DNA of 64,000 nucleotides from a virus. The translations under genes and the position numbers were made by a program. The stretch spans positions 1-64,000 of the IMG/VR virus record IMGVR_UViG_3300036791_001907. One strand, given 5' to 3'. The notes under the pieces were generated by a model. That model searched no databases. It saw only the letters and a list, made by a program, of their open reading frames with translations, and was not told the origin of the DNA. Positions 2,490 to 34,147 of this stretch are shown in pieces; the first letter of the stretch is position 1, and every line of letters starts with the position of its first letter.

Positions 2490-3293
2490 ATGCCTTTCGC
2501 CTGGACCGCCTTCTATCACGATGGCGGGTTCGCGCAGCAGCGCCGCAACGACCCGCTTCACCTTGACACCAGGATGCTCCGGAGCATCCAGCTCGCCGAC
2601 CACGAGGGTCGGCCCTTTCTTGAGCAGCTCTTCGAGCCCCAGCAGCGGGCGATCTACCACGTCCTGCCCGAGACCCCGATCTCCGGAGCACCCTGCCACA
2701 TGCTGGGCTGGCAGGAGACGCTCATGCGCAATGGCCGCCAGATCTCGGTCCAGCACATCGCCTACGCCTCGGAGGACGGCCGGATCGTGATGGCCGGTCG
2801 TTATGACGAGGGCCTGCCCTGGTTCGCCGTGGCTCGTGATGTCGACGACCGGATCCCCGACCTGACCTGGGTCGCCCACTATGAAGACGGCAAGAGCGAC
2901 CCGATGGTCGAGCCGGTCACCCGTACCGAGATCTCGACCGAGCAGCTCGATCGCAGCCGCCTCCTGTCCGTGGTCCTCTACGGCAACGGCGGCCTGCCCT
3001 GGTTCGAGCAGTACTTCGACCGGGGCCAGCGGATGATCTTCCGGCGGCGCCGGTATGAGGCGCCCGGCGGCCTGGGGGTGGACCAGAAGCAGATCGTCAA
3101 CATGCTGGGCTGGCAGCTCACGGCACAGGCCCAAAGCGGCCATAGCTCCAACGTGCAGCACATCGCCTACGCGATCGAGGACGAGTCGATCATCATGGGC
3201 GGCGCCTTCCAGGAGAACCACCCCTGGTTCCACGCCCCGCAGTATGTTCCCGCTGACGGCTGGGAGATCGGCGGGGTCTTGCCCGAGACCTGA
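2490..3293 (+). CDS. Unknown protein made of an internal duplication
   Basis: This 267-aa protein contains two related halves. QHIAYASEDGRIVMAGRYDE with LPWF near residues 90-117 matches QHIAYAIEDESIIMGGAFQE with HPWF near 226-253. FLEQLFEPQQRAIYHV near 46 matches WFEQYFDRGQRMIF near 171. HMLGWQ and NMLGWQ also occur in both halves. A strong AGGAGGG site precedes the ATG. The protein lies directly upstream of the first giant fibre gene, with 28 nt between them, so it is probably a virion component. I recognise no family. Confidence 0.6.
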   Translation: MPFAWTAFYHDGGFAQQRRNDPLHLDTRMLRSIQLADHEGRPFLEQLFEPQQRAIYHVLPETPISGAPCHMLGWQETLMRNGRQISVQHIAYASEDGRIVMAGRYDEGLPWFAVARDVDDRIPDLTWVAHYEDGKSDPMVEPVTRTEISTEQLDRSRLLSVVLYGNGGLPWFEQYFDRGQRMIFRRRRYEAPGGLGVDQKQIVNMLGWQLTAQAQSGHSSNVQHIAYAIEDESIIMGGAFQENHPWFHAPQYVPADGWEIGGVLPET

Positions 3294-3321
3294 CTGGCCC
3301 CCCGGCCCACGGAGGGGCCCT

Positions 3322-6300
3322 GTGCCACCCGCCCAGCCAACCACGTCGCACGGTACCTCGACCGCCCTGGTCGCGGCGCCTGGCGTCGCGCCGCGCGCGT
3401 CGCTTCTCGAGTTCGTCCAGCGCGACAACTGGCGCAACGGCTTCTGGATCGGCCAGTACGGCGCCCAGGGTTATTCCGTGCTCCAGTTCGCCGGCACGCC
3501 CGACGTGCTGCCGCCCGGCTGCACGGTCACCTACGCCGGCGGCACCCTCAGCACCAACTGGGTCAGCGGCACCGACCCGCGAGGGCTTCAAGTCCCGGGT
3601 AGTCCTGGCCAGTTTGGCCTCGGGAACTACGACTCGAACGGCTGCACGGTCACGTTCCAGATCACTGATGGTCTCCCGCATGCGCTGTCGTTCTACTTCT
3701 GGGACGCCAGCCTGATCCACCGCCAGCAGACCATCGCGGTCTACGACGTTACCGGTACGACCGTACTGGAGGGGCCCAGGGACTGCGGCGACTATGACAC
3801 CACCGGCGTGTACATGACCTGGAACACGTCAGGTTCGGTCCAGTTCAAGTTTGCCGTTGGCTATTATTCGGCATTTTTCTGCGCCTGGTTCGTCGATCCG
3901 CCCAAGACAGTCCGTGGCCGGGCGCACGGTACTGACACGGCGCTACTGGCGCCGACGGCCGTGTTTGTGCAGCGCGACAACTGGCGCAATGGCTATTACT
4001 GGATCGGCACATACGGCGCGCAGGGCTATTCGCTCCTCCAGAACCAGGGGGTGGTCGACGTCCTGCCGCCGTCATCCAAGGTGACTCTGAGCAACCCCGC
4101 CAACCTCGCGGTCAACTGGGCCAACTGCGGCCCTCCGGGCGGCCTGGCGATCCCCGGCGGCGGCACCGCTGGGGTCTCGATCTACTACACGAGCGGCAGC
4201 GCGATCATCAGCATCACGTTCCAGATCGGCGACGATCTTCCTCACGCCGTGTCGCTCTATAGCTTTGACACCGGCTATGGCTGGCGGGGGACTCTTGCGG
4301 CCTACGACGGCAGCGGCGGCCAGCTGCTTGACGGGCCCCGCGACATAGGCGACTACAGTACGACCGGCGTCTACATGACCTGGAACATCCGGGGCGCGGT
4401 CCAGTTCCAGCTCGCCGCAACAAACGGGAACATCCTGATCGACGGCTGGTTCATCGACCGGCCGAAGTCAGTCGGCGGCGGCCAGGCGCACGGCACTGAC
4501 ACCCTGTTGCGCGCGCCGACGGCAAGCTTCGTGCAGCGCGACAACTGGCGCAATGGTTTCTGGGTCGGCCCGTACGGCAACCAGGGCTACTCACTCGCCG
4601 GGTACAACAGCATCCCTGATGTTCTGCCGCCGTCGTGCTCATGGACTGTGCCTACCGCTGGCATTGCGAACCCATGGTATACCGGCAGTGATCCCCGCTA
4701 TCCCCAGCACCCTGATGGCTCTGCGGCCACCGGCCTCGCGGCCTATTACGGCGGTGGCTGGACCATGACGTTCCAGCTGGGTGACGGCCATCCCCACGCG
4801 ATCTCGCTCTTCTGTCTCGATGCCGAGAAGATGCGTACGCAGACCATCACGATCTACGACATCACCGGCACCAACATCATCGACGGACCCAGGGACTGCG
4901 GCGACTTTGGTACCACCGGCATCTACATGACCTGGAACGTGAACGGTCCGGTCTACGTTTACGGCATATATACAGGGACAACGGGATATAACGCGGTGAT
5001 CTCGGCCTGGTTCGTCGACCGGCCGATCACCGTCGGCGGCCAGGCGCATAGCAGCGACAGTCTGATCGTGGCGCCCACGCCGGCCGCGCCGACCAGGGCG
5101 CACGCCAGCGACTCGCTCCTGCTCGGCAACCTGATCTCATGGTGGCGTCTGGACGAGACCGCGACGGGCGCGGTCGCGGTCGACTCGGCGCCTCCCGCGG
5201 CCAATGCCACCGACTCGGCCGGCACCACGACCGCGTCGACCCCGGCGCCGATCAACCCGGCGCCCAATGGCTTTCCCAACCCGGGCGGCCGCCACTTCCC
5301 CGGTACCACCGTCTGCCTCGACGCCGGGATCCAGCCCTATCACAACCTCACCAACAACTTCACCGTGGCCGCGTGGGTCCGGCTCGCGGCCGCGAGCACC
5401 TATGCGGTCGTGGGCCACTGCGACAACACGCCATCGACGCAGGGCTGGCTCCTGGGCACGCAGGGCGGCATACCCTACATGGGGGCGTCCAACAATGGCA
5501 TGGGCACGGCGGCCGCCGATGCGGCCCTGACGGCCGGGGTCTGGGCCCACATCACCGGGACCATTGTTGCCGGCAGGGAGCGCATCTACGTTGGTGGCCG
5601 GTTGCAGGCGGGCCAGAACGGTGTCGTACCGCTGCCCAGCCCGACCATGCACACGTACATCGGCCGCAGCGCCACGACGGGCACGGCCCAGTATTACAGC
5701 GGCGACATCGATGACGTCCGTATCTACCGCGTCGTTCTGACCAACGACCAGATCCAGAGCCTGGCCGGCGGCAATGAGCCGCTCTCCGTCACGCCCACAA
5801 CCCAGACGCACAGCACCAATACTTGGGTGATGACGCCGGCGGTCAAGATCTGCACCACCGACATCCGGGTGGTGCGCACGTCGGTCTGGCCGCATGGCAC
5901 CGATGCCATGCGGCATCTCCAGCTAAACGAAGCGCACGACACTGATACCGCGCTGCGCGCGACAACGCCCCGGGCCCACGGCACCAGTGTCACGCCGTGC
6001 GCGCCAGTGTTCCAGGCCCATGCGGCTGATACCTATCTGGAGCCCGAGACCGCGGTGTTCATCCAGCGCGACAACTGGCGCCAGGGCGCCTGGATCGGCC
6101 AGTATGGCGCGCAGGGCTATTCCCTGCTCGGCTACGGTGGGACGCCCGACGTGCTGCCGCCGCAGTGCACGGTTAGCCATGCGGGCGGCACCCTCGTGAA
6201 CCCGTGGGTCTCGGGCACTGATCCGCGCTATCTTCAGACTCCCAGTGCTGGCACCCCGGGGCTTGCCGCGTATCACACGCCGATCACGACCGTGGTCGAG

Positions 6301-6696
6301 CTTGGAGAGACCGGCCCGCACGCCCTGACGTTCTACTGCTTCGATGCCAACCAGATCGGCCGCGACCAGACGATCGCAGTCTATGCCGCCGACGGCGTTA
6401 CCCTGCTCGACGGGCCCCGGGACTGCGGTGACATCGGCACCACCGGCGTCTACATGACCTGGAACGTGCAGGGCACGATCCAGTTCATCTTTACCGCGGT
6501 CAACCAGGATGCGGTCTTTTCCGCCTGGTTCATCGACTCCTGGATCAAGGTCTACGGACCGTTCTACAGTACCGACACCATGTTGCTCGCGGTGCCGACC
6601 ATGACCCATTCGACCGGTTCGTTCCTCGTCAAGATCGTGGCGTCGCGCTCCCGCACCCAGCGGGTGGGCACGCGCCCCACCGCCTTCGGAGACTAA
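3322..6696 (+). CDS. Giant modular fibre/adhesin-like protein (four 180-aa modules plus LamG domain)
   Basis: The frame is open further upstream, but the start chosen is GTG 3322, because GGAGG ends 6 nt before it and it follows the previous stop; this gives 1124 aa. Four modules start with FVQRDNW or FIQRDNW at residues 31, 215, 403 and 913. Each runs through IGQYGAQGYS, DVLPP, DPR.LQ, LPHA, GPRDCGD, GVYMTWN and a closing AWFVD or AWFID. Between them lie short units of the form AHGTDTALLAPT. Residues about 604-817 form a LamG/concanavalin-type lectin domain (WWRLDE, FTVAAWVRL, WAHITGTI, YSGDIDDVRIYRVVL). The architecture suggests a receptor-binding fibre. The module order resembles a domain of unknown function seen at the ends of bacterial secreted proteins. 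Confidence 0.75.
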   Translation: MPPAQPTTSHGTSTALVAAPGVAPRASLLEFVQRDNWRNGFWIGQYGAQGYSVLQFAGTPDVLPPGCTVTYAGGTLSTNWVSGTDPRGLQVPGSPGQFGLGNYDSNGCTVTFQITDGLPHALSFYFWDASLIHRQQTIAVYDVTGTTVLEGPRDCGDYDTTGVYMTWNTSGSVQFKFAVGYYSAFFCAWFVDPPKTVRGRAHGTDTALLAPTAVFVQRDNWRNGYYWIGTYGAQGYSLLQNQGVVDVLPPSSKVTLSNPANLAVNWANCGPPGGLAIPGGGTAGVSIYYTSGSAIISITFQIGDDLPHAVSLYSFDTGYGWRGTLAAYDGSGGQLLDGPRDIGDYSTTGVYMTWNIRGAVQFQLAATNGNILIDGWFIDRPKSVGGGQAHGTDTLLRAPTASFVQRDNWRNGFWVGPYGNQGYSLAGYNSIPDVLPPSCSWTVPTAGIANPWYTGSDPRYPQHPDGSAATGLAAYYGGGWTMTFQLGDGHPHAISLFCLDAEKMRTQTITIYDITGTNIIDGPRDCGDFGTTGIYMTWNVNGPVYVYGIYTGTTGYNAVISAWFVDRPITVGGQAHSSDSLIVAPTPAAPTRAHASDSLLLGNLISWWRLDETATGAVAVDSAPPAANATDSAGTTTASTPAPINPAPNGFPNPGGRHFPGTTVCLDAGIQPYHNLTNNFTVAAWVRLAAASTYAVVGHCDNTPSTQGWLLGTQGGIPYMGASNNGMGTAAADAALTAGVWAHITGTIVAGRERIYVGGRLQAGQNGVVPLPSPTMHTYIGRSATTGTAQYYSGDIDDVRIYRVVLTNDQIQSLAGGNEPLSVTPTTQTHSTNTWVMTPAVKICTTDIRVVRTSVWPHGTDAMRHLQLNEAHDTDTALRATTPRAHGTSVTPCAPVFQAHAADTYLEPETAVFIQRDNWRQGAWIGQYGAQGYSLLGYGGTPDVLPPQCTVSHAGGTLVNPWVSGTDPRYLQTPSAGTPGLAAYHTPITTVVELGETGPHALTFYCFDANQIGRDQTIAVYAADGVTLLDGPRDCGDIGTTGVYMTWNVQGTIQFIFTAVNQDAVFSAWFIDSWIKVYGPFYSTDTMLLAVPTMTHSTGSFLVKIVASRSRTQRVGTRPTAFGD

Positions 6697-6700
6697 CGCC

Positions 6701-7252
6701 ATGAAGGAGCGGCAGCAGAACAGCACCATCTACCCGATCGGGTTCCTGCTGGTCCTGAGCACCGATCACATCACCGGCGCCACCGGCCGCGCCGCCACGC
6801 TCACCCTGACGATCTCCAAGAACGGCGGCGTGTTCGCCGCCCCCGTCGGCATCGTCACCGAGACCGGCTTCGGCTGGTACAGCTGGTCCCCCAGCTCGGG
6901 CGACCGTGACACCCTGGGCGAGCTGAAGCTGCACGTCGTCGATGCGCTCTCTGATCCTTACGACGAGAAGTACGACATCGTCGCCTACGATCCGTTCGCC
7001 GCCGTGGCGCTGCCGGCCGCCGAGCACACGGCCATCGCCGACGCGATCCTGACTCGCGACTGGACCCAGATCGCGAGCTGGCCGACCCGCTGTTTGCTCC
7101 AGGGCCTGCGGCTGCTGCGCAACAAGTGGTCGATCGCTCCGGCTACGGGCGTGCTCACCGTGACCACCGAGGACGACGCGACCCAGGCCTGGCAGATGCA
7201 GACCCAGAGCCAGGCGGGCGCCGCACCGATCGTGGGCCAGACCCCGATGTGA
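6701..7252 (+). CDS. Small tail-type domain protein, paralogous to the C-terminus of the next gene
   Basis: This 183-aa protein has the pattern GFLLVL..DHITG, LTISKNGG, ETGFGWYSW, DTLGELKLH and KYDIV in its first half. The second half reads AIADAILTRDW, then LRLLRNKWSI, LTVTTEDDATQAWQM and a Pro-Met ending. This beta-domain plus helical tail pattern is common in minor tail proteins of uncultured phages. The same sequence of motifs ends the 1889-aa protein directly downstream (from about residue 1718), so one domain exists here both alone and fused. It may form a shared attachment or trimerisation unit for the fibres. Confidence 0.7.
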   Translation: MKERQQNSTIYPIGFLLVLSTDHITGATGRAATLTLTISKNGGVFAAPVGIVTETGFGWYSWSPSSGDRDTLGELKLHVVDALSDPYDEKYDIVAYDPFAAVALPAAEHTAIADAILTRDWTQIASWPTRCLLQGLRLLRNKWSIAPATGVLTVTTEDDATQAWQMQTQSQAGAAPIVGQTPM

Positions 7253-7264
7253 CGGACCCTATTC

Positions 7265-10200
7265 ATGGCCTCGATCCCGTTGACTCCCGATGCTGGACCG
7301 ACGGCGGCCCACGGCGCTGACGCCTGGCTGCGGCCCGTTGCCGCGCGGAGTCACCGGACCGGCACGGTCAACGTGGGCCTGGGGCAGACCCGCGCGCAGG
7401 CCATGTCGGTCGTTACGCAGCGTATTGAGGACCGGGGACACGCGACGGCCACCACGATGATCCTCGTGGGGGCAGGCACGCACATCACCGGTGCGCGCGC
7501 CCGTGCCGAACTGACCCAGGTGCATGCGACCGCGACGATCGTGGCTGGTCTGGCGCGCGCCACGCCCCGCGCCGCCAGCCCGGGCTACACGAGCCCGCTC
7601 GGCATCTGGTTGGGTGGTGCCTCCCAGGCGAACTTCAGCGTGCCCACGAGCCACGGCACCAGCACGCTGACGGTCTTCCGCCGCGTGCTCACGTACAGCA
7701 CCGACACGATGGAGCAGGGCATCCCGGCGCGGGTTCAGATCAGCGATACGCTAACGTGGTTCGCCGCGACGCCCATTCACGGCACCAACACGGTGGCGTA
7801 TGCGCGGCTCGCCCAGGCACATCAGACCGATGTGCTGATCCGCACCGCGGCTGCGCGGGTCCACACCACCGGTAGCTTGATCGCATTGCTGCGCACCAGC
7901 GCCCGGGTTCAGCTCACGAACAGTCTTGCCAGAAGCACCTCGACCCGAAGCAGTGCGACCGACAGCCGGACCTACAGTACTGCGCTCCCGGTGAATATCA
8001 CTGATGGATTGCTCCGCGCCACGACCGTCCGGTCCCACGCGACCAGCACGCGCTGCCGCGCCACGGCCGTCCGGTCCCAGACGACCAGCACGCTCTGCCG
8101 TGCTACGCCCATCTGGTCCTTCATGACTGATGCGCTCCGGCGCGCGACCGGAAGCCATCCGCACGCGACCAGCATCCTGCGGTTCGCGTCCGTGAGCCGG
8201 GCGCATGCGACCGATATCCGGACCCGCAGCGCTATCGTCCATGTGCACACGACCGATGTTCGCGCCGCGGTGCGAGTCAGCGCCGCGGTGCTCCATACGA
8301 CTGATGTCGATCGCCACGGGATCGTGGTCCGGACCCACGCGGCCGACGGTCTGAAGCTTTCCCCTGGTGCCTGGGTCTACAACACCGACGCGGCAACCCG
8401 CATCGCGCGGCTCCAGACGCACGGTACCAGCACGCAGGTCGCGCAGCTGGCGGCGCGGCTGCGGGCCAACTTGACCGACACGCGCTCCCGCTGGATCTCG
8501 ATCCGGTCCCATGGCACCGATACCCTGGTCATGCCGGCGGTGGTCGGCCTGGAGGTTTACTCCACTGATATCGTCCTTATGCTGGTCGCGCAGCCTGCCC
8601 ACGGCGCTGACGCCCTGGTCGCGCAGCTCATGGCGACTCCGCAAACCCATGCGGCCGACGCCGATCTCATGGGTCACTGCCATCCGCCCCACGGGACCGC
8701 CACCCTATTCAGCGTATTGACGGCGGCGGTGCACACGACCGACACCAGGATCGCAACGCGCGCGACACAGCAGCGAGTCCATGTCAGCGATACTCTGCTG
8801 CGGCCGCTGGTGGCCTTTGTCCAGCGCGACAACTGGCGCAATGGCATCAACTGGATCGGCCAGTACGGCGCCCAGGGCTACTCGCTCTACAGCTACAACA
8901 ATGTGCCCGACGTGTTGCCGCCGTCCTGCAACTACACCGTCACGAACCTCGGCATCGTCCCCAACTGGGTCACCGGCACGGGGGACCCGCGCTACCTCCA
9001 GGTTCCCAACTCCAGCACCACAGGAGCCGCGGTCTACTACGTGACGACCGGCCCGCCCGGATTGATCACGTTCCAGCTCAATGACAAGCATCCCCACGCG
9101 GTGACGCTCTACAGCTTCGACAAGGAGAAGGCGGGTCGCAAGCAGACCTGGGCGGTCTACGACGTCACGGGCACCACGCTCCTGGATGGTCCCCGCGACT
9201 GCGGCGACTTCGGCACCACCGGCATCTACATGACCTGGAACGTGGACGGGCCGGTCCAGTTTCAGCTCACCGACATGGCGGGCCCCGGGGCCAACGCGGT
9301 GACCTCGGCCTGGTTCATCGACCGGCCGATCACGGTGGGCGCGCGGGCGCACGGCAGCGACGTCGACATGGCGCGGCCGTTCTCCGGCAGGGCCCACTCC
9401 AGCGACACCATGGTGCGGGCAGCGACCGCGGTCTTCGTGCAGCGCGACAACTGGCGGGCATGCTACTGGATCGGCCAGTACGGCGCGCAGGGCTACTCGC
9501 TCTTCCAGGCGGGCGGCGGTGCCGGCACGCCCGATGTTCTGCCGCCCTGGCTCACATACAGTCTGAGCGGTACTGCTGTCCGGAACTGGGATGACGGCTA
9601 TCCGCCCTACTTCCTTGAGATCCCCAACAGTCCCGACGGTATTACCTGGATCTCGATCTTTTACACGGGCACCACCGCGACCGTCACGTTCCAGCTCACT
9701 GACGGTCTTCCTCATGCCCTGACGCTCTTCAGCGAGGACGGTGGCCAGGGCTGGCTGGGGACCATCGCGGTCTACGACGTCACCGGCACCACCCTGCTGG
9801 ACGGGCCCCGGGATGTGGGTCCCATGAGTGCCAATGGCATCTACATGACCTGGAACGTGACGGGCTCGGTGCAGTTCCTGCTTACGGCGACGAATGGCAA
9901 CATGATGGTCGATGCCTGGTTCGTCGACCGGCCGATCACCGTGGGTGGGAAGGCGCACGGCAGCGATAGCCTGACCGCGCAGGTCACGACGGCCAGAGCC
10001 CATTCCAGCGACGCCTTACTGGTACCGGCGGGACCAGCAACCTTCGTACAGCGCGACAACTGGCGCAACGGTGGCCGGTGGATCGGCACCTACGGACTTC
10101 AGGGCTACAGCATCTTCCAGTTGTCCGGAACGCCCGATGTGTTGCCGCCGAACTGCACGGTGATCCCGGCGGGCGGCGGCCTGGTTCAGGACTGGTTTGC

Positions 10201-12934
10201 CTCGAACCCGGGCTACGCCAGCGACCTGCGCCTGATCGAGATCCCCAGCAAGCCTGGCGCCCCTGGGCTCTCGATCTACTATACCAACGGTACCTACACA
10301 TTCACATTCAACTGCGATGACGGTGCCGCACACGCGGTGGCGCTCTACTTCACCGATCCCACAGGCAATAACTGGACGGGAACGGTCACGGCCAAGGACG
10401 TCAACACCGGCGCCGTTCTCGATCCGGTGCGCAATGTGGGCGATGACTGGACGACCGGCGTCTATCTGGTCTGGAACATCATCGGCCATGTCCAGTTCGA
10501 GCTTAGCCCCACGGTGGCGGGCACGAACTTCCCGACTGCGGCCTGGTTCATCGATCGGCCAAGAGCGGTCGGCGGGCAGGTGCATGGCAACGACAGCCTG
10601 ACGGCACTACCCACGCCGGCCGCGCCTGCCGTGGCGTACGCCAGTGACAGCATGCTGCAAAAGCCAGCCGCGCTCTTTGTGCAGCGCGACAACTGGCGCA
10701 ACGGTTTCTGGCTTGACCAGTATGGCGCCCAGGGTTATTCGCTCTTCGACTATAGCGGGGTGCCTGATATTCTGCCTCCCGGATGCACATACAGTGTCGC
10801 CGGCTGCGCCTTCGCGAACCCCTGGCATTCGGGCAGTGATCCCCGCTATCTCCAGGTCCCCAGCGCCTATGGCACCACTCCCGGAGCCGCGGTCTACTAC
10901 ACGACCACGACCGGGACCGTGACGTTCCGGCTCAATGACAACCTTCCCCACGCTGTGACGCTCTTCAGCGTCGACATCGATCGGGTCGACCGCCGGCAAA
11001 CCTGGACGGTCTACGACAGTACCGGCACCAGGATTCTGGACGGACCGCGGGACTGCGGCGACTTCGGCACCACGGCCGTCTACATGACCTGGAACGTGCA
11101 GGGCTCGGTCCAGTTCGTCCTCACCTTTACGGTGAACGCCAATGCGGTACTTTCTGCCTGGTTCATCGATCGACCCTTGCTGGTCGGCGGGCAGGCGCAT
11201 GCCGCCGATAGTTTGGCCCAGACGTTCAGTATCTGCCTCTGGGCCCAGACCACCAGCACGGACTGTCGCGGCGCGGTCATTCGCGCGCATGCCACGAACA
11301 GTCGGATCTATCGTACCGTCGCGGCAGTCCATTCCACGGATCTGTGGACCCTCGCCACAGGTCTGCGCGCGCATGGTACTGACAGTCAGGTTGCGCGGCT
11401 CAGCACTTCGGCTCCAGCGCATACGACCGATAGCAGTCACATCCATACGGCCAGCTGCGGCCATGGCACCAGCAGCGCGGCCCAGTTCATCTTCGCGCAG
11501 GCTCATGGCACCGACGCCGGGACTCGGCTGGTTAGCAGATCCAGCCACGCCACCAGCAGCTGGCTGATGAAGCCCGGCGTCGGCCTCCTGATGCAGACGA
11601 CCGACGTCGACTGCGCCGGTACGCGGCTCCGGATCCACAACACCGGCAGCCTGCTCTCGCAGATCACGGTACGGAAGCATGCCGCGAATGCGCTGGCACG
11701 GCAGACGTTCGTCCGCGCCCAGACGGCGGATAGTTTGCTGGTGCGACCGGCCACGCTGATCCACGCCACGGACGTGCTCTGGCAGCAGCCGGCCATCCGG
11801 GCGCATGCCACGGATCTGCGGACCCACGGGACGTACGCGGCGAACCAGGCGACCGACAGCTGCGCCTTCGCGGCGCACACGGTCACGACCACGACCGATA
11901 CCGGCACCGCGTATCTCCAGGTCAGACGTCATGCAACGGATAGCCGGCCAATGCGGCTCACCACGCGTGCGCACACGGCCGACGCCATGCTCTCCGCGCA
12001 GCGGGCCACGAGCCACGGTACCGACACGGGCAAGCTGGGCTTGTCGTGGCGGCCCAGCTACATCGACGGCCTGAAGCGTGGCACCCTGGTCCGGACGCAC
12101 AACACGAACGCATACGCTGCCGTCGTCCGGACCACGGCGCACGGGACGAATGCCGCGACCTACGGGCTGCGGCTCCAGACGCACGCGACCAGTGCGCTCC
12201 TGGTGCAGTCGCGGTCGTACATCATCAGCACGGATGCGTCGCTCCTGCGGCTGCCGGCGGCCAGGCATCAGACCAACACGGCCGCGGCCGTGCTCAGGGC
12301 GCATGCGCATCAGACCTCGACCATGACCACCATCGCGCCGATCGTCGGCCGCTGGGCCGCGCAGCGGGTCATGACGCGGCAGCCGGCCCAGCTCGCTTCC
12401 CACGATCGCCAGGAGACCAACACGACCTACGGCGTCGGGTTCCTGCTGGTCGGGCCCGACCGGATCACCCCGGTGCTCGGCGCCACGCCCACGGTCCGGC
12501 TCCTGAAGTCGGGGACCACCAGCTGGGTACCCGCCATCGGCACCGTGCGCGAGATCGGCCAGGGCTGGTACGAGCTGATCGGCTCGATCTATGATCGCAA
12601 TGTGGCGGGCGAGACGATCCTGATGGCCACTGCGCCGGGGGCCGAGACCGCCTGGACCAAGTTCGATGTCGTGGTTTCTGCCCCGTATGCCTACATCAGC
12701 TTCGGCACGACGGAACTTGCGGCGATCGCCGACGCAACTCTTACCCGGAGCTTCGGTTCCGCGGCTCTCGTGGCCGCCCGTTCGGTACTCCAGGCGGCCC
12801 GGTCGCTGTTCCAGTGGAACGCGGCCCAGGGCATGCCGTTGAAGATCGTTGCCGAGAATACGACGACGGCGTGGCAGGCCAACACGACGACCGATCCCAC
12901 GATCAACCCGATCCGGGGGGTGGACCCGATGTAG
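7265..12934 (+). CDS. Giant repeat fibre protein with 14-residue shaft repeats and four 180-aa modules
   Basis: This is the largest gene in the window (1889 aa). Residues about 14-517 and 1303-1710 consist of a degenerate repeat, mostly 14 and sometimes 16 residues long, with the core H-x-T-D or H-x-T-S followed by a small hydrophobic run and Arg-Ala. Around 60 units can be counted by eye. Between these tracts sit four FVQRDNWR modules starting at residues 518, 724, 927 and 1138, the same family as in the first giant fibre. The C-terminal 170 residues repeat the domain of the 183-aa gene upstream. A fibrous shaft carrying globular side or tip modules is the natural reading. The target is unknown. 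Confidence 0.75.
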   Translation: MASIPLTPDAGPTAAHGADAWLRPVAARSHRTGTVNVGLGQTRAQAMSVVTQRIEDRGHATATTMILVGAGTHITGARARAELTQVHATATIVAGLARATPRAASPGYTSPLGIWLGGASQANFSVPTSHGTSTLTVFRRVLTYSTDTMEQGIPARVQISDTLTWFAATPIHGTNTVAYARLAQAHQTDVLIRTAAARVHTTGSLIALLRTSARVQLTNSLARSTSTRSSATDSRTYSTALPVNITDGLLRATTVRSHATSTRCRATAVRSQTTSTLCRATPIWSFMTDALRRATGSHPHATSILRFASVSRAHATDIRTRSAIVHVHTTDVRAAVRVSAAVLHTTDVDRHGIVVRTHAADGLKLSPGAWVYNTDAATRIARLQTHGTSTQVAQLAARLRANLTDTRSRWISIRSHGTDTLVMPAVVGLEVYSTDIVLMLVAQPAHGADALVAQLMATPQTHAADADLMGHCHPPHGTATLFSVLTAAVHTTDTRIATRATQQRVHVSDTLLRPLVAFVQRDNWRNGINWIGQYGAQGYSLYSYNNVPDVLPPSCNYTVTNLGIVPNWVTGTGDPRYLQVPNSSTTGAAVYYVTTGPPGLITFQLNDKHPHAVTLYSFDKEKAGRKQTWAVYDVTGTTLLDGPRDCGDFGTTGIYMTWNVDGPVQFQLTDMAGPGANAVTSAWFIDRPITVGARAHGSDVDMARPFSGRAHSSDTMVRAATAVFVQRDNWRACYWIGQYGAQGYSLFQAGGGAGTPDVLPPWLTYSLSGTAVRNWDDGYPPYFLEIPNSPDGITWISIFYTGTTATVTFQLTDGLPHALTLFSEDGGQGWLGTIAVYDVTGTTLLDGPRDVGPMSANGIYMTWNVTGSVQFLLTATNGNMMVDAWFVDRPITVGGKAHGSDSLTAQVTTARAHSSDALLVPAGPATFVQRDNWRNGGRWIGTYGLQGYSIFQLSGTPDVLPPNCTVIPAGGGLVQDWFASNPGYASDLRLIEIPSKPGAPGLSIYYTNGTYTFTFNCDDGAAHAVALYFTDPTGNNWTGTVTAKDVNTGAVLDPVRNVGDDWTTGVYLVWNIIGHVQFELSPTVAGTNFPTAAWFIDRPRAVGGQVHGNDSLTALPTPAAPAVAYASDSMLQKPAALFVQRDNWRNGFWLDQYGAQGYSLFDYSGVPDILPPGCTYSVAGCAFANPWHSGSDPRYLQVPSAYGTTPGAAVYYTTTTGTVTFRLNDNLPHAVTLFSVDIDRVDRRQTWTVYDSTGTRILDGPRDCGDFGTTAVYMTWNVQGSVQFVLTFTVNANAVLSAWFIDRPLLVGGQAHAADSLAQTFSICLWAQTTSTDCRGAVIRAHATNSRIYRTVAAVHSTDLWTLATGLRAHGTDSQVARLSTSAPAHTTDSSHIHTASCGHGTSSAAQFIFAQAHGTDAGTRLVSRSSHATSSWLMKPGVGLLMQTTDVDCAGTRLRIHNTGSLLSQITVRKHAANALARQTFVRAQTADSLLVRPATLIHATDVLWQQPAIRAHATDLRTHGTYAANQATDSCAFAAHTVTTTTDTGTAYLQVRRHATDSRPMRLTTRAHTADAMLSAQRATSHGTDTGKLGLSWRPSYIDGLKRGTLVRTHNTNAYAAVVRTTAHGTNAATYGLRLQTHATSALLVQSRSYIISTDASLLRLPAARHQTNTAAAVLRAHAHQTSTMTTIAPIVGRWAAQRVMTRQPAQLASHDRQETNTTYGVGFLLVGPDRITPVLGATPTVRLLKSGTTSWVPAIGTVREIGQGWYELIGSIYDRNVAGETILMATAPGAETAWTKFDVVVSAPYAYISFGTTELAAIADATLTRSFGSAALVAARSVLQAARSLFQWNAAQGMPLKIVAENTTTAWQANTTTDPTINPIRGVDPM

Positions 12935-12973: not shown

Positions 12974-14203
12974 ATGGCCTTTGAACCGTACACCAGGGTT
13001 GACTTCGGACCCGCCCGGGCCGGCCTCAGAGCCGTCGGCTACACGCTGGTCAAGGCCGGGCGGCCGATCGGCCCGCGGATCACCCGGGGGATCGAGGACC
13101 TGGGGAGCGGCCATTACGGCGCCGCGGTGGACTACCCGAGCCACTTTCGTGGCCAGCTTGTCTGGGACACGGGCGGTCCCAGTCCGCAGACCGTCGCCTT
13201 CAACGTCACGCCCGAAGAAGGCGCCGTCGTGGTGGGCACGGCCGCCGCCGTGAAGCGGGCGGCCGGACCGGCACGCCGCGGTGCGCCTCGGCCGCGCATC
13301 GTGCCGCCGCAGGCCGCCCTGGGCTCTTACCTGGAGGGCTGTGAAGCGCCGCCGGCCGCGCCCGTCATCGGGACGATGGACTCGCTGCCGGTGTCGCCGC
13401 GGCTGCGGTCGGTCATCGTTCCCTCCTGTCCCTGTCCCACGATCTCCTGGACGATGGTCGACGCCGAGGGCTGCCCCATCGACCTGAGTGCCTGCGAGGT
13501 GGGCGCCCAGTTCCAGATCCTGGGCGCGCTCAGCATCGTGCCCGACTGCTTCAACTATCTGGTCACGTTCAACGCGTCGTCGCCAGATCCGCCGGCCGGC
13601 CTGATGGTGGCTGCTATTGATCCGGTGCAGCTCCAGGGCCCGGGCATCTACATCGCCGAGATGGCCGTCTTCGATGCCGACGGCGAGTGCGTGGCGGCGC
13701 AGAACCAGTTCTACCTGGTCGTGCAGCAGAGCCTCTTCGGCGCCAACTTCCAGTGGCGCGGGCCGCCCAGCATGGCCGAGATCCGGCTCGAGCTGCGCGA
13801 CAGCTCGCCCCTGGAGAACGACCTGCTCGACGACTCGGTGGCCTTCGACAACGCCGAGATCGCGGTGGCGCTGCGCAACGTCGTCGACTACTGGAACGAG
13901 TCGCTGCCGCCGATCGCGCCCTACACCACCCAGAACTTCCCGTTCCGGTATTGGTGGAAGCGGGGCGCCAAGGCGCAGCTCTTCTGGATGGCGGCCGAGT
14001 GGCATCGCAAGAACCAGGTCGCCTACTCGGCCGGCGGCGTCTCGTTCGATGAACACGGCCAGAAGGCGCAGCAGTACGATGAGGCCGCTGCGACGATCTG
14101 GCAGGAATACCGGCAGTGGGCCCAGCAGAAGAAGATGTCGATGAACATGGAGCAGGGCTGGGGCGAGGTCGTCTCCGACTATTCGAGGTATAACGCCTGG
14201 TGA
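12974..14203 (+). CDS. Virion structural protein, connector/neck-like C-terminus
   Basis: The start at ATG 12974 follows GGAGG by 10 nt and gives 409 aa. The N-terminal 80 residues (YTLVKAG, DLGSGHYGAAV, RGQLVWDTGG) resemble the small beta-domains of phage tail fibres. A central region is rich in Cys-Pro (VPSCPCPT). The C-terminal 150 residues (LRDSSPLENDLLDD, IAVALRNVVDYWNE, FPFRYWWKRGAKAQL, QEYRQWAQQKK) look helical. This pattern occurs in large myovirus genomes near the neck and tail genes. The next gene starts within its stop codon (TGATG). A head-to-tail connector role is possible but unproven. Confidence 0.6.
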   Translation: MAFEPYTRVDFGPARAGLRAVGYTLVKAGRPIGPRITRGIEDLGSGHYGAAVDYPSHFRGQLVWDTGGPSPQTVAFNVTPEEGAVVVGTAAAVKRAAGPARRGAPRPRIVPPQAALGSYLEGCEAPPAAPVIGTMDSLPVSPRLRSVIVPSCPCPTISWTMVDAEGCPIDLSACEVGAQFQILGALSIVPDCFNYLVTFNASSPDPPAGLMVAAIDPVQLQGPGIYIAEMAVFDADGECVAAQNQFYLVVQQSLFGANFQWRGPPSMAEIRLELRDSSPLENDLLDDSVAFDNAEIAVALRNVVDYWNESLPPIAPYTTQNFPFRYWWKRGAKAQLFWMAAEWHRKNQVAYSAGGVSFDEHGQKAQQYDEAAATIWQEYRQWAQQKKMSMNMEQGWGEVVSDYSRYNAW

Positions 14204-15884: not shown

Positions 15885-15932
15885 CAACGGAGTGGATGCA
15901 ATCGTTCGACCTGCATGGAGGCTCCGATAGCG

Positions 15933-18680
15933 ATGGCCTACATTCTGCCCCAGGTGCTCGTCTTCCAGGAATTCGACATCACGCCGGCAGGGTTGACGGG
16001 CACCCTGAACGCGCACATCTCCGGACCGCACGCCTTTCTGCTCCGCTACGCGGACCCCACCGAGAAGGATCTGGCCTACCTGGGCGCGTACGATCCCCTG
16101 AACGGACTGGTCAGCAACTGGCCGCAGCGGCCGCCGGGCGGGCTTGTCGATACGACCTACACCAAGATCTACATCGACAACGCGCTGCTTCAGTACTTCC
16201 AGAACCTGATGGGCAGCGGTGATACCGTCGTGCCGGTTGCTGCCAACAAGGTTCAGCTCAACAGTCCGACTTACGGCTTCGTGGGCAATGGCACCGCCTA
16301 CCCCAGGCTCCCTGCGCTCTATGATCGTGACGTGCAGCCGGGTGACCGGGTCCATATCCGCGGCGCCGTGGCGAGTGTGAACTACGACCTCGATACTTAC
16401 GTCACGGCCATCGAATCCAACCCGGTCAGCGCAGTCGTCGGCGCCGCCTACGCGGACCAGAGCAACGGGCCCACGCAGGCCGCGACCTCGAGCGCCAGCC
16501 AGACCGCCGGCACCGACAACTCGATCACGCTGGCCGCCGACACCACCACCTACAGCGCTCTGACCGATGGGGCACTCTCCGACACCTACACGGTCACGGT
16601 GATCAACGGATCGGTCGGCGGCGACTTCACGACCGCGCAGCTGCGGATCACCACGGCCAGCGGCAATGACGACGTTCTGGCGATCGCCCCGGCGGCCGCC
16701 GGCACGGCCTTCCCGGTCGGCAACCGCGGCCTCTTGCTGACGTTCTCCCGCACCTTGGCGACCGATGATCTGATCGCCGGCCAGACCTTCGAGGTGCAGA
16801 TCCAGCAGGCATACACGGCCATCGTCGCCACCTCGGCCGGCACCTACCGCGGCTCACAGTCAACGACCTACGTGATCCAGTTCACCCAGGGCGGCATGTT
16901 CAATGCGGCCGACCCCGCGCTGCGGCCCCAGTTCAGCGCCATCACCGTGCATGGCACCGACAGCAGCCCGCCGCTGCCGGTCGACGCCCCGGCCACGGCC
17001 TACCCGGTGGGTACTCAGGGCGTGACGGTCCACTTCGGCGCCAGCCCGGACGGCGTCCGCAAGGGGGACCGTTTCTACGTCCCTGTCACCGGCGCGCAAG
17101 ATGGCCAGATGAATATCCTCGTGCTGGCCAACAACCTGCCGGCGCAGCTCTGGACGCCGACCCCGGCCACCGATCTCGATCTGACGCTCTCCGTCGAACG
17201 TGACATCATGGTCGACGAGATGGCCGGCGGCATCACCAACTGGACGCAGAGCGACATCCAGATCATTCTCAACGCGGGCATCGAGGCCTACGACGAGAGC
17301 TTCACCCAGGGGGGCGAGCCCTACGCCCTGCCGGTCATGTCCGGCCTGGTCTATGTGGAATACCGCGCCTGGGTTCCCGAGTTGTCCACCTCGGTCGGCG
17401 CGATCTACGACGTCGGCGATCTGGACGCCCTGATCAGCGGCCCCTTGACCCCCGACAACCCGCTCAAATGGGGCGTGTTCAAGGCGCTCTCGAACAGCAA
17501 CGGCACGAATGTCATGTTCACGTCCGTTGCCGATCCCGCCGACATCGACAGCTGGGACGCCGTGCTGGCGCTCCTGATCGGCCGCACCGATGTTTATAAC
17601 CTGGTGCCCCTGACGTTTGACCGCACGGTCCTCGACCTGTACGCGGCCCACGTCGATGACGAGTCGTCGCCGGAGCAGGCCCGCTGGCGGGCGCTCTTCG
17701 GCTCGATCCAGGCCACCACCCAGGCGGCGATCGTCTCCCAGGCCGACTCGACGGACGGCAACGTCGTCATGGCCACCATCGCGCAGGATCCCCAGGCTGT
17801 CGGCAATGACTTCATCATGCTGACCGTGCCTGCCCAGAACTCCGGCTTCCTGACCAACCAGGTGCAGCCCAGCGACATCGTCCGCACCAACTACGGCGTC
17901 GATCAGAACGGCAACGAGATCTACGACGAATATGTTGTTGACATTGTCCTGAATGAGGACTCGCTCCAGCTGATGTCCGGGCCCGCCGAGGCCGTGACGG
18001 TGGCCCAGAAGATCGAGATCTGGCGCTACCTGTCGAAGGACGAGATTGCCGCGGACCTTGCGACCCAGGCCGGCAGCTTCGGCGACCGGCGGGTGAAGAT
18101 GGTCTGGCCGGACACGGTCGGCTCAGGCGGCATCCTTCAGGAGGGCTACCACCTGGCCGCGGCGCTGGCGGGCCTGCGCTCGGGCGTCGTTCCCCAGCAG
18201 GGCCTGACCAATGTTCAGGTCATGGGCTTCGACGACCTGTCCCGCACCACCGACTTCCTCTCCGGAGCCCAGCTCAACACCATGGCCACGGCCGGCACGT
18301 GGATCGTGACCCAGGCCCCTGACGGGACAGTCTATAACAGGCACGCGCTGACCACGGATAACACGGATGTGAATTCTTCAGAGGAGATGGTCACGTCCAA
18401 CCTGGACTCGATCTCGTACACGTTCGCCAACCAGCTGGCGCCCTACATCGGCCGGATGAACGTCACGCCGTCAGCACTCCTGGTTCTGGGCACCGAGATC
18501 GACTCGGTGATCGACTACCTGAAGTCCAACGGGTATGTCCCCCGCCTCGGCGGTCAGCTGGTCGATGCCACGATCATCAGCCTCCAGCCGCATGCCATCC
18601 TCGCCGACCGGGTGGTCTGCGTCATCGATGTCACACTGCCCTACCCGATGAACAATCTCGAGCTCCATCTGGTCGTCTGA
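15933..18680 (+). CDS. Contractile tail sheath protein
   Basis: The sheath forms the contractile outer cylinder of a myovirus tail. Start ATG 15933 lies 11 nt after GGAGG; an upstream in-frame ATG at 15915 would contain that ribosome site, so I rejected it. The 915-aa protein ends with a typical sheath C-terminal region: GYHLAAALAGLRSGVVPQQG, NVQVMGFDDLSRTT, LNTMATAGTWIVTQ and SISYTFANQLAPYIG. The first ~400 residues contain long Thr/Ser/Ala-rich beta segments, which look like inserted surface domains. At 915 aa it is much longer than T4 gp18 (659 aa). The tube-like gene follows 56 nt downstream, as expected. Confidence 0.85.
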   Translation: MAYILPQVLVFQEFDITPAGLTGTLNAHISGPHAFLLRYADPTEKDLAYLGAYDPLNGLVSNWPQRPPGGLVDTTYTKIYIDNALLQYFQNLMGSGDTVVPVAANKVQLNSPTYGFVGNGTAYPRLPALYDRDVQPGDRVHIRGAVASVNYDLDTYVTAIESNPVSAVVGAAYADQSNGPTQAATSSASQTAGTDNSITLAADTTTYSALTDGALSDTYTVTVINGSVGGDFTTAQLRITTASGNDDVLAIAPAAAGTAFPVGNRGLLLTFSRTLATDDLIAGQTFEVQIQQAYTAIVATSAGTYRGSQSTTYVIQFTQGGMFNAADPALRPQFSAITVHGTDSSPPLPVDAPATAYPVGTQGVTVHFGASPDGVRKGDRFYVPVTGAQDGQMNILVLANNLPAQLWTPTPATDLDLTLSVERDIMVDEMAGGITNWTQSDIQIILNAGIEAYDESFTQGGEPYALPVMSGLVYVEYRAWVPELSTSVGAIYDVGDLDALISGPLTPDNPLKWGVFKALSNSNGTNVMFTSVADPADIDSWDAVLALLIGRTDVYNLVPLTFDRTVLDLYAAHVDDESSPEQARWRALFGSIQATTQAAIVSQADSTDGNVVMATIAQDPQAVGNDFIMLTVPAQNSGFLTNQVQPSDIVRTNYGVDQNGNEIYDEYVVDIVLNEDSLQLMSGPAEAVTVAQKIEIWRYLSKDEIAADLATQAGSFGDRRVKMVWPDTVGSGGILQEGYHLAAALAGLRSGVVPQQGLTNVQVMGFDDLSRTTDFLSGAQLNTMATAGTWIVTQAPDGTVYNRHALTTDNTDVNSSEEMVTSNLDSISYTFANQLAPYIGRMNVTPSALLVLGTEIDSVIDYLKSNGYVPRLGGQLVDATIISLQPHAILADRVVCVIDVTLPYPMNNLELHLVV

Positions 18681-32485: not shown

Positions 32486-34147
32486 ATGGCCGACATCCTC
32501 GATGTGCTCGACCTGTCGACGATCGACCCCACGCTCGTGGACCTGGTGCACCAGCAGATCTCCGAGCGGATGGCGGAACAGTTCCCCGAGCTGGAGATCA
32601 AACGGGGAGTTATTCATGATATCGTCCTGTATCTGATGTCGATCCTGGGTGCCGAGCAACGGACCCGGATGCAACTGATCTTGCAATCCAACAGCCTGCT
32701 GTCGATCTCCCAGAACCCGGCGCTGAGCGACGACACCACCGTCGATCTGCTGCTCTCGAACTTCCGGATCACCCGCGAGCCCGGCGCGCCCGCCGCCGGT
32801 ACGATCACCATCATTCTCAGCGCGCTGACACCGGTCGTGATCCCGGCGGCCGCCCTGTTCTCTTCCGGCACCATGACGTTCACGCCCGGCCAGGCCTACG
32901 CGGCGCGGATCAACGCCGCCACGGCCACCACCGATACGGACCGCGTGCTCTACCCGCTGGGCGACGGCACTTACGCATTTTCAATACCGGTGACGGCCAC
33001 GGCGGCGGGTTCGGCCGGCATGCTCCGCCGCGGCGCCGGCCTGACGCCCCTGGACCCCATCCCCTACTTCGACCGGGCGTTCGCCGAGAGCGACTTCACG
33101 GGTGGTTTCGACCCGGAAACCAACCAGGACATGCTCAACCAGCTCCAGAGCGGCATGGCGGCCCAGGCGTGGTCGAACCGGGTCACGATCGACGCCTCGA
33201 TCCGCGCCATGCCCGAGTTCTCCCGCATCCTTCAGACCTCGATCATCGGCGCCGGCGATCCCGAGATGCTCCGCGACAAGCATACGGTGATGCCGATCGC
33301 CAACTTCGGCCGGGTCGATCTCTATGTTCGCACCCAGGCGCTGCCGGCGTCGCGCACCCTGACCTACACGGCCACCTTCATCCAGGCCACTTCCGGCGGC
33401 GGGATCTGGCAGTTCTCGGTCGCCTCGGCCGACGCCCCCAGCTTCTACGTGGTCGACCGGGTCGGGCCGCCGCTGGGGCCACAGGATGATGCGGGTTACG
33501 AGATCACCAGCGACATTCGCGGCGTGGATCTGAACTACCCCGGTTTCGTGCCCGACATCATGAACCCGCTGGAGGCGACCTATAGCCGCTATCAGGCGGC
33601 GACCGTCCAGTTCCTGGACACGGACACGCCGGTTACCGGCCTGGTTCCGAACCAGTCCACCGCGCAGTACTCCGTCTCGCTCCTGCTGATGCCCCTGATC
33701 GACGCGATCCAGGATACCGTCTCCGGCCGCTCCTTCGGCGCCCCGGCCGGGGACTGCCTGGTCAAGGCCCCGGTCCCCTGCTTCCTGACGCTCAGCTTCA
33801 ACATCAACAAGCGGGCCACCGTGATCGTCGATCAGCCGACCATCGATGGCATCAGTACGTCCGTGGCCAGTCTGGTCAACTCGCTGGGCTTCATCGGCCA
33901 GCTCTACGCCAGCCTGCTGGCCGAGACGATCCAGCAACAGCTGCCCGATGGCGCCTACCTCGGCGCCATCGATATGTTCGGAACCATCCGGCTGCCGGAC
34001 GGCACGATCCGGCGGATCCGCAGCCCGGAGGTCCTTGAAGTCCCTGATATCCCTGCGCTGATGGTCACCGCGCGCACGGTGATCTTTCTGCTCGACCCGC
34101 TCGACATCGGTATCTCCGTGATCGATGTGGACATGCCCGACATCTAA
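32486..34147 (+). CDS. Baseplate wedge protein, gpJ/gp6-like
   Basis: In this 553-aa product the N-terminus (RGVIHDIVLYLMSILGAEQ, then LSISQNPALSDDTTVDLLLS NFRI) is the helical entry of J-like wedge proteins. A beta domain (GTITIILSALTPVVIPAAAL FSSG, VTATAAGSAGML) and a C-terminal part (LLAETIQQQLPDGAYLGAID, VIDVDMPDI) follow. Such proteins form the ring that joins baseplate wedges and contact fibres. It follows the gp25-like gene at 11 nt, the classic order. A strong AAGGAGG at its 3' end serves the next gene. Confidence 0.75.
   Translation: MADILDVLDLSTIDPTLVDLVHQQISERMAEQFPELEIKRGVIHDIVLYLMSILGAEQRTRMQLILQSNSLLSISQNPALSDDTTVDLLLSNFRITREPGAPAAGTITIILSALTPVVIPAAALFSSGTMTFTPGQAYAARINAATATTDTDRVLYPLGDGTYAFSIPVTATAAGSAGMLRRGAGLTPLDPIPYFDRAFAESDFTGGFDPETNQDMLNQLQSGMAAQAWSNRVTIDASIRAMPEFSRILQTSIIGAGDPEMLRDKHTVMPIANFGRVDLYVRTQALPASRTLTYTATFIQATSGGGIWQFSVASADAPSFYVVDRVGPPLGPQDDAGYEITSDIRGVDLNYPGFVPDIMNPLEATYSRYQAATVQFLDTDTPVTGLVPNQSTAQYSVSLLLMPLIDAIQDTVSGRSFGAPAGDCLVKAPVPCFLTLSFNINKRATVIVDQPTIDGISTSVASLVNSLGFIGQLYASLLAETIQQQLPDGAYLGAIDMFGTIRLPDGTIRRIRSPEVLEVPDIPALMVTARTVIFLLDPLDIGISVIDVDMPDI

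Follow-up and report, generated by a model that had tools for sequence, protein, structure and literature searches.

The question raised by this locus is why two neighbouring proteins of a virus carry the same module in eight copies, and what the module does there. The locus lies in a window of 64,000 nucleotides, that is, the first 64 kb of an IMG/VR virus record of 161,481 nt (IMGVR_UViG_3300036791_001907). The two genes, the domains within them, the small ORF between them and the tail genes downstream are all on the plus strand. Our preferred answer, which we consider probable, is that the modules are interchangeable glycan-binding beads on long virion fibres and provide multivalent adhesion to the host.

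Fibre protein 1 (3322..6696) has 1,124 residues when it is read from the GTG at 3322, the probable start within the longer ORF 3055-6696. This assignment is based on the ORF and its start region, the repeats and a LamG match. The protein contains 14-residue repeats, four modules and one LamG_3 domain (PF13385; 5341..5757, residues 763-901 of ORF 3055-6696, E 6e-22). Fibre protein 2 (7265..12934) has 1,889 residues and also contains four modules. Repeats make up its N-terminal shaft (7310..8815) and its C-terminal shaft (11198..12350), the limits of both being approximate, and a C-terminal domain follows at 12398..12931. Between the two fibre genes lies a separate ORF of 183 residues (6701..7252), which is a paralogue of this C-terminal domain (36% identity, E 2e-24). 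The paralogy suggests a duplication as the origin of the two fibre genes; in one of the two, the shared domain would have been either detached or fused. Just upstream of the fibre genes, a protein of 267 residues (2490-3293) shows an apparent internal duplication, with MLGWQ...VQHIAYA motifs in both halves; a confident family match for it was not found among the Pfam and PHROG profiles.

Much of the non-module part of both fibre proteins is a 14-residue repeat with the consensus xRTHxTDxxLRxTx, spaced at 14 and sometimes at 16 residues. About 60 copies were scored in total, ~50 in protein 2 and 12 in protein 1, and such a repeat follows every module (8/8). Both this shaft and the LamG domain of protein 1 had been overlooked in the first-pass annotation. 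The shaft repeat had no match in INPHARED (50,697 phage records), a search in which low-complexity filtering may hide matches, and an AlphaFold2 monomer of ten repeats gave a pLDDT of 29.5 and no usable model.

The fibre genes sit in a tail region. Downstream of them, on the same strand and in an order that is kept in relatives, we found matches to a tail sheath (15915..18680, C-terminal part; phrog_279, E 1.1e-9) and to a baseplate wedge subunit (32486..34147; phrog_6, E 5.8e-12). The two proteins are most naturally read as fibres of a large, uncultured phage with a contractile tail; the gene neighbourhood and the repeat architecture point to such a location on the virion.

Protein 1 carries modules 1 (3412..3897), 2 (3964..4458), 3 (4528..5019) and 4 (6058..6537), and protein 2 carries modules 5 (8816..9322), 6 (9434..9928), 7 (10043..10555) and 8 (10676..11170). 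All eight were recovered by the sequence pattern, by the record-wide search and by the leave-one-out profiles. Modules 2 and 6 are variants that pair with each other in the tree described below, and module 7 is the most divergent. Pairwise identity among the eight is 43-65%. When profiles were built from seven modules, the eighth scored 184-267 bits, while none of 5,000 shuffled modules exceeded 16.5 bits. These values bear out the earlier proposal of eight homologous modules, four in each of two neighbouring proteins. The record-wide search returned exactly eight, with no ninth copy in the whole 161,481-nt record.

The earlier description of the module has to be corrected in part. Its length had been given as 180 residues, which is nearer to a module plus its linker; the measured length is 160-171 residues (~165). 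The proposed boundaries, FVQRDNWR at the start and AWFID or AWFVD at the end, hold in their general form, but the eight modules run from F[VI]QRDNWR to [AG]WF[IV]D, and module 2 ends in GWFID. The landmark motifs are likewise present but not universal, being looser than claimed in modules 2, 3, 6 and 7. DPR.LQ is missing in modules 2, 6 and 7 and altered to DPRYPQ in module 3; GPRDCGD is altered in modules 2, 6 and 7, and module 2 is without PRDC; MTWN is replaced by LVWN in module 7. Comparison of module pairs by the NG86 method gave dN values of 0.26-0.59 and dS values of 0.52-1.01, and in this weak test, made at high divergence, the ratios would be consistent with constraint. The cysteines at PPxC and PRDC co-occur in modules 1, 3, 4, 5 and 8, whereas modules 2 and 6 are without both and module 7 has the first only. 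This pair may form a putative disulfide.

The module did not fall into a named family. No model in Pfam, NCBIfam or PHROG covered it, module 5 had no match among the INPHARED phages, and neither CBM35 nor any other CBM family appeared among the Pfam matches of the eight modules up to E 10. The LamG_3 profile did not match the modules either, its sole match in protein 1 being the domain outside them. Several other matches were rejected as chance on account of a partial span, a single matching member or a poor E-value: the flagellar hook protein FlgE (PDB sequence match, E 0.04), FlgF (NCBIfam, E 0.089), and PF21930 and eIF_4EBP (Pfam). We also rejected the idea that the modules are targets of a diversity-generating retroelement; the 161-kb record, which is possibly a fragment, contained no reverse transcriptase (PF00078).

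Relatives of the module were found in bacteria of soil and gut, on secreted enzymes among others. Pattern scans seeded by the phage modules alone retrieved no viral or genome contig: the peptides used, QRDNWR and YGxQGY, are specific to the phage clade. Reseeding the scans with the bacterial form of the domain retrieved relatives, and such peptide-seeded scans undercount them. As a lead only, we used the consensus of a domain carried by enzymes that bacteria secrete (TQGNWKGVYGADGYN ... GVYLVWN.SGHV ... GLFF). It scored 89 bits with the phage-only HMM and led to relatives carried by plasmids, in Planctomyces sp. SH-PL62 and in Embleya. A genome-contig scan seeded with the Planctomyces domain and two further sequences then yielded 25 loci, distributed over Planctomycetota, Acidobacteriota, Verrucomicrobiota, Omnitrophota, Bacteroidota and Armatimonadota.

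The HMM built from the eight phage modules only gave 23-81 bits on bacterial ORFs and on two other viral contigs, and its matches also included domains of Actinomycetota. Thus the bacterial link is independent of the consensus used as a lead. The profile-profile probability to the bacterial form was 99.6% over 150 columns, and the homology between the phage module and the bacterial TQGNW/YGADGY domain extends over the full length. The likeness to a C-terminal domain of bacterial secreted enzymes, which had been noticed from the order of the landmarks, is therefore a real homology. The two forms differ in that the bacterial domain opens with TTQGNW and has GLFF where the phage clade has QRDNWR and WFID, and in that its linkers are Ig/FN3-like or short, whereas those of the phage are the 14-residue repeats.

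The bacterial copies number one to four per retrieved ORF, are often in tandem and are commonly C-terminal. The domain is C-terminal on alpha-L-rhamnosidases, on a GH2 enzyme and on a ThuA/GSDH/PKD/CBM6 protein, and further carriers include subtilases, a beta-propeller, a cohesin/LamG protein, Ig/FN3 proteins and proteins with GH2 catalytic domains. Subtilases account for two of these carriers, and several others are Ig/FN3 proteins with no evident enzyme, so that carbohydrate binding need not be the role of the module everywhere. The distribution is patchy: with the seed genome counted each time, the domain occurred in 12 of 149 genomes of Planctomycetota, 1 of 149 of Acidobacteriota and 2 of 148 of Bacteroidota. 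The 50 domain matches in one Planctomycetales MAG (locus L026 in genome G008) are a striking lineage-specific expansion.

The structure of module 5 was predicted by AlphaFold2 from an input alignment of 59 members. The model was all-beta with 12 beta strands (pLDDT 94.1, pTM 0.91). In the Foldseek search against the PDB, the best match was the CBM35 structure 2w1w (E 4.5e-5), and another CBM35 structure, 2w47, was also among the best; CBM22, CBM61, CBM36 and malectin stood below the CBM35 matches. The TM values to the best CBM matches were 0.36-0.43 by query length and up to 0.54 by target length. Since these values are only about 0.4-0.5, we call the module CBM-like and do not file it under CBM35. 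These families are among the best fold matches of the predicted module, and its bacterial homologues share with them an accessory position beside catalytic domains, but the module lacks a Pfam sequence match to them and exceeds the CBM35 chains that it matched by ~40 residues. Against viral structures, the fold search matched scattered proteins, from phage tails or annotated as CBMs, the best of them at E 3e-4, and none was a clear relative of the module.

The second fold match in the PDB was the peptidoglycan O-acetylesterase Ape1, and this raises the thought that the modules have an enzymatic activity of their own, trimming the host polysaccharide as, for example, a depolymerase or an esterase would. 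A few polar residues, namely D and R, plus H within the phage clade, are strongly conserved in the family, as might be expected of such an enzyme. However, in the alignment of 59 sequences only W14, G19, G22 and F168 are invariant, with D, Y, P, W, R and W near-invariant, so that no invariant catalytic set exists. The domain is moreover accessory to separate catalytic domains in bacteria, and the top fold matches other than Ape1 are mostly binding modules. We regard an enzymatic role as highly improbable.

The first-pass annotation had suggested a repeated binding unit, possibly for glycans. Two results named in advance as speaking against it, a lack of bacterial matches together with a fold unrelated to binding, did not appear: homologues occur on bacterial secreted enzymes, often at the C-terminus, and the closest folds, at moderate TM, are mostly carbohydrate-binding modules. 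Taken together, the homologues and the predicted fold support the suggestion, and binding itself would be a likely property of such a module.

Further evidence came from close relatives of the virus. We used the protein of a structural-type gene just downstream of the fibres (12974..14203), which weakly matches a Salmonella phage Arash structural protein, and found three close relatives in which its identity is 69-79% (L039, L040 and L043). All three have the same shaft repeat, in proteins at 2-9967 of L039, 936-9968 of L040 and 3999-9941 of L043, with 30-79 scored THxTDxxLRxT copies per large fibre protein. What varies is the beads. This virus has eight modules and one LamG, and the three relatives have nine and four (G014), none and four (G015), and none and one (G018), where the absence of modules refers to the recorded sequence, since IMG/VR records may be fragments. 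In G014, four modules and four LamG signatures are in the main fibre and five modules are in two further ORFs. The LamG counts of the relatives were obtained with a short signature motif, and Pfam confirms LamG in all three.

This variation on one shaft indicates that module and LamG behave as interchangeable beads. The module is outside the LamG_3 profile and is thus a second bead type, whereas LamG itself, known from phage structural proteins, is carried by protein 1 and by the shafts of the relatives. No other comparison, we think, argues as strongly for a lectin-like role as the exchange with LamG, as read from these sequences.

The same observations have to be weighed against a structural role, in which the modules would be ligand-free spacers or stiffeners that set the length or thickness of the fibre, or would make contacts between fibres or between fibre and capsid. 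Phage structural proteins can bear decorations of that kind, Ig-like or other beta-sandwich domains. The position of the modules between shaft repeats, the change of copy number among relatives that retain the shaft, and the presence of the bacterial domain in proteins that have multiple Ig units or FN3 but no evident enzyme would all suit such a role. On the other hand, the domains exchanged with the modules are lectin-like, glycosidases carry the domain at their C-terminus, and the nearest folds are mostly CBMs. A purely structural role thus seems unlikely to us, and we prefer glycan binding.

The tree of the domain shows how the modules multiplied. The modules of the window and of G014 form one clade (100/100), and seven of the eight window modules group together (100/99). 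Modules from the two proteins are intermixed, module 2 pairing with module 6, which means that duplication crossed between both genes. We infer that an ancestor of this lineage probably took the domain from a bacterium and then multiplied it by duplication. Among close relatives, beads are gained, lost and swapped with LamG. The modules of two other viral contigs, L036 and L037, are placed among the bacterial ones on weakly supported forks, which suggests separate acquisitions.

Glycan binding could then work on the virion as follows. The two proteins would form long fibres whose shafts are built of the 14-residue repeat, and between the repeats the modules of ~165 residues and the one LamG would be set in as beads independent of each other. 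Each module would be a carbohydrate-binding-like beta-sandwich, with a polysaccharide as its most likely ligand. Avidity would come from the large number of weak glycan-binding beads on each fibre, multiplied by several fibres per virion; the phage could thereby hold and scan the polysaccharide coat of the host, and a separate step would then commit it to infection. The same evidence might also be read to mean that the modules bind extracellular matrix, a mucus-like polymer or the surfaces of environmental particles and not a host receptor, and so keep virions near hosts. The bacterial versions sit on secreted enzymes that possibly act on environmental polysaccharide, which would agree with this, and yet we judge it quite improbable as compared with adhesion to the host.

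The general strategy is known. The CBMs inserted in siphophage Dit proteins have been shown to bind host cells, and CBM-decorated tail proteins are an established means of saccharide adhesion (PMC7291167); domain shuffling is also widespread in receptor-binding proteins (PMC10684548). Like the evolved Dit and BppA, the present proteins would be structural proteins of the tail with inserted CBM-like domains that serve adhesion to saccharides, but those have one or two insertions in the tail-hub protein of a siphophage (PMC7291167), whereas here eight copies of a different domain family are carried on repeat shafts in a phage with a contractile tail. The domain family is new, and the resources that we searched, which for the literature were open-access PMC, cover neither the domain nor the shaft nor such a scale. 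We tentatively propose, with somewhat less confidence than the adhesion reading itself, that the module defines a carbohydrate-binding family not described before, common to bacterial glycosidases and phages, and that the hitherto unknown shaft of 14-residue repeats is a combinatorial adhesion rod bearing unrelated lectin-like beads in variable number and order.

These findings give a concrete identity, open to testing, to a domain that is met again and again on enzymes secreted by bacteria but has no Pfam or NCBIfam model, and they connect the attachment of a phage to its host with the polysaccharide-degrading machinery of bacteria. The swapping of module and LamG on one shaft also offers a natural system in which avidity and specificity can be dissected by counting and exchanging beads.

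Two further viral copies show the module in other settings. In L065, a different phage contig with ORFs that by eye resemble terminase, portal and capsid genes, a single module (9911-10657) is preceded by a signal-peptide-like start and followed by a Pro-Thr repeat tail, as if it were secreted and not part of a fibre; this copy was a later find and was left out of the tree. In L036, one module is fused to another short repeat (LTGVxATGSVGTL..., 5761-7158), a parallel to the bead-on-repeat design.
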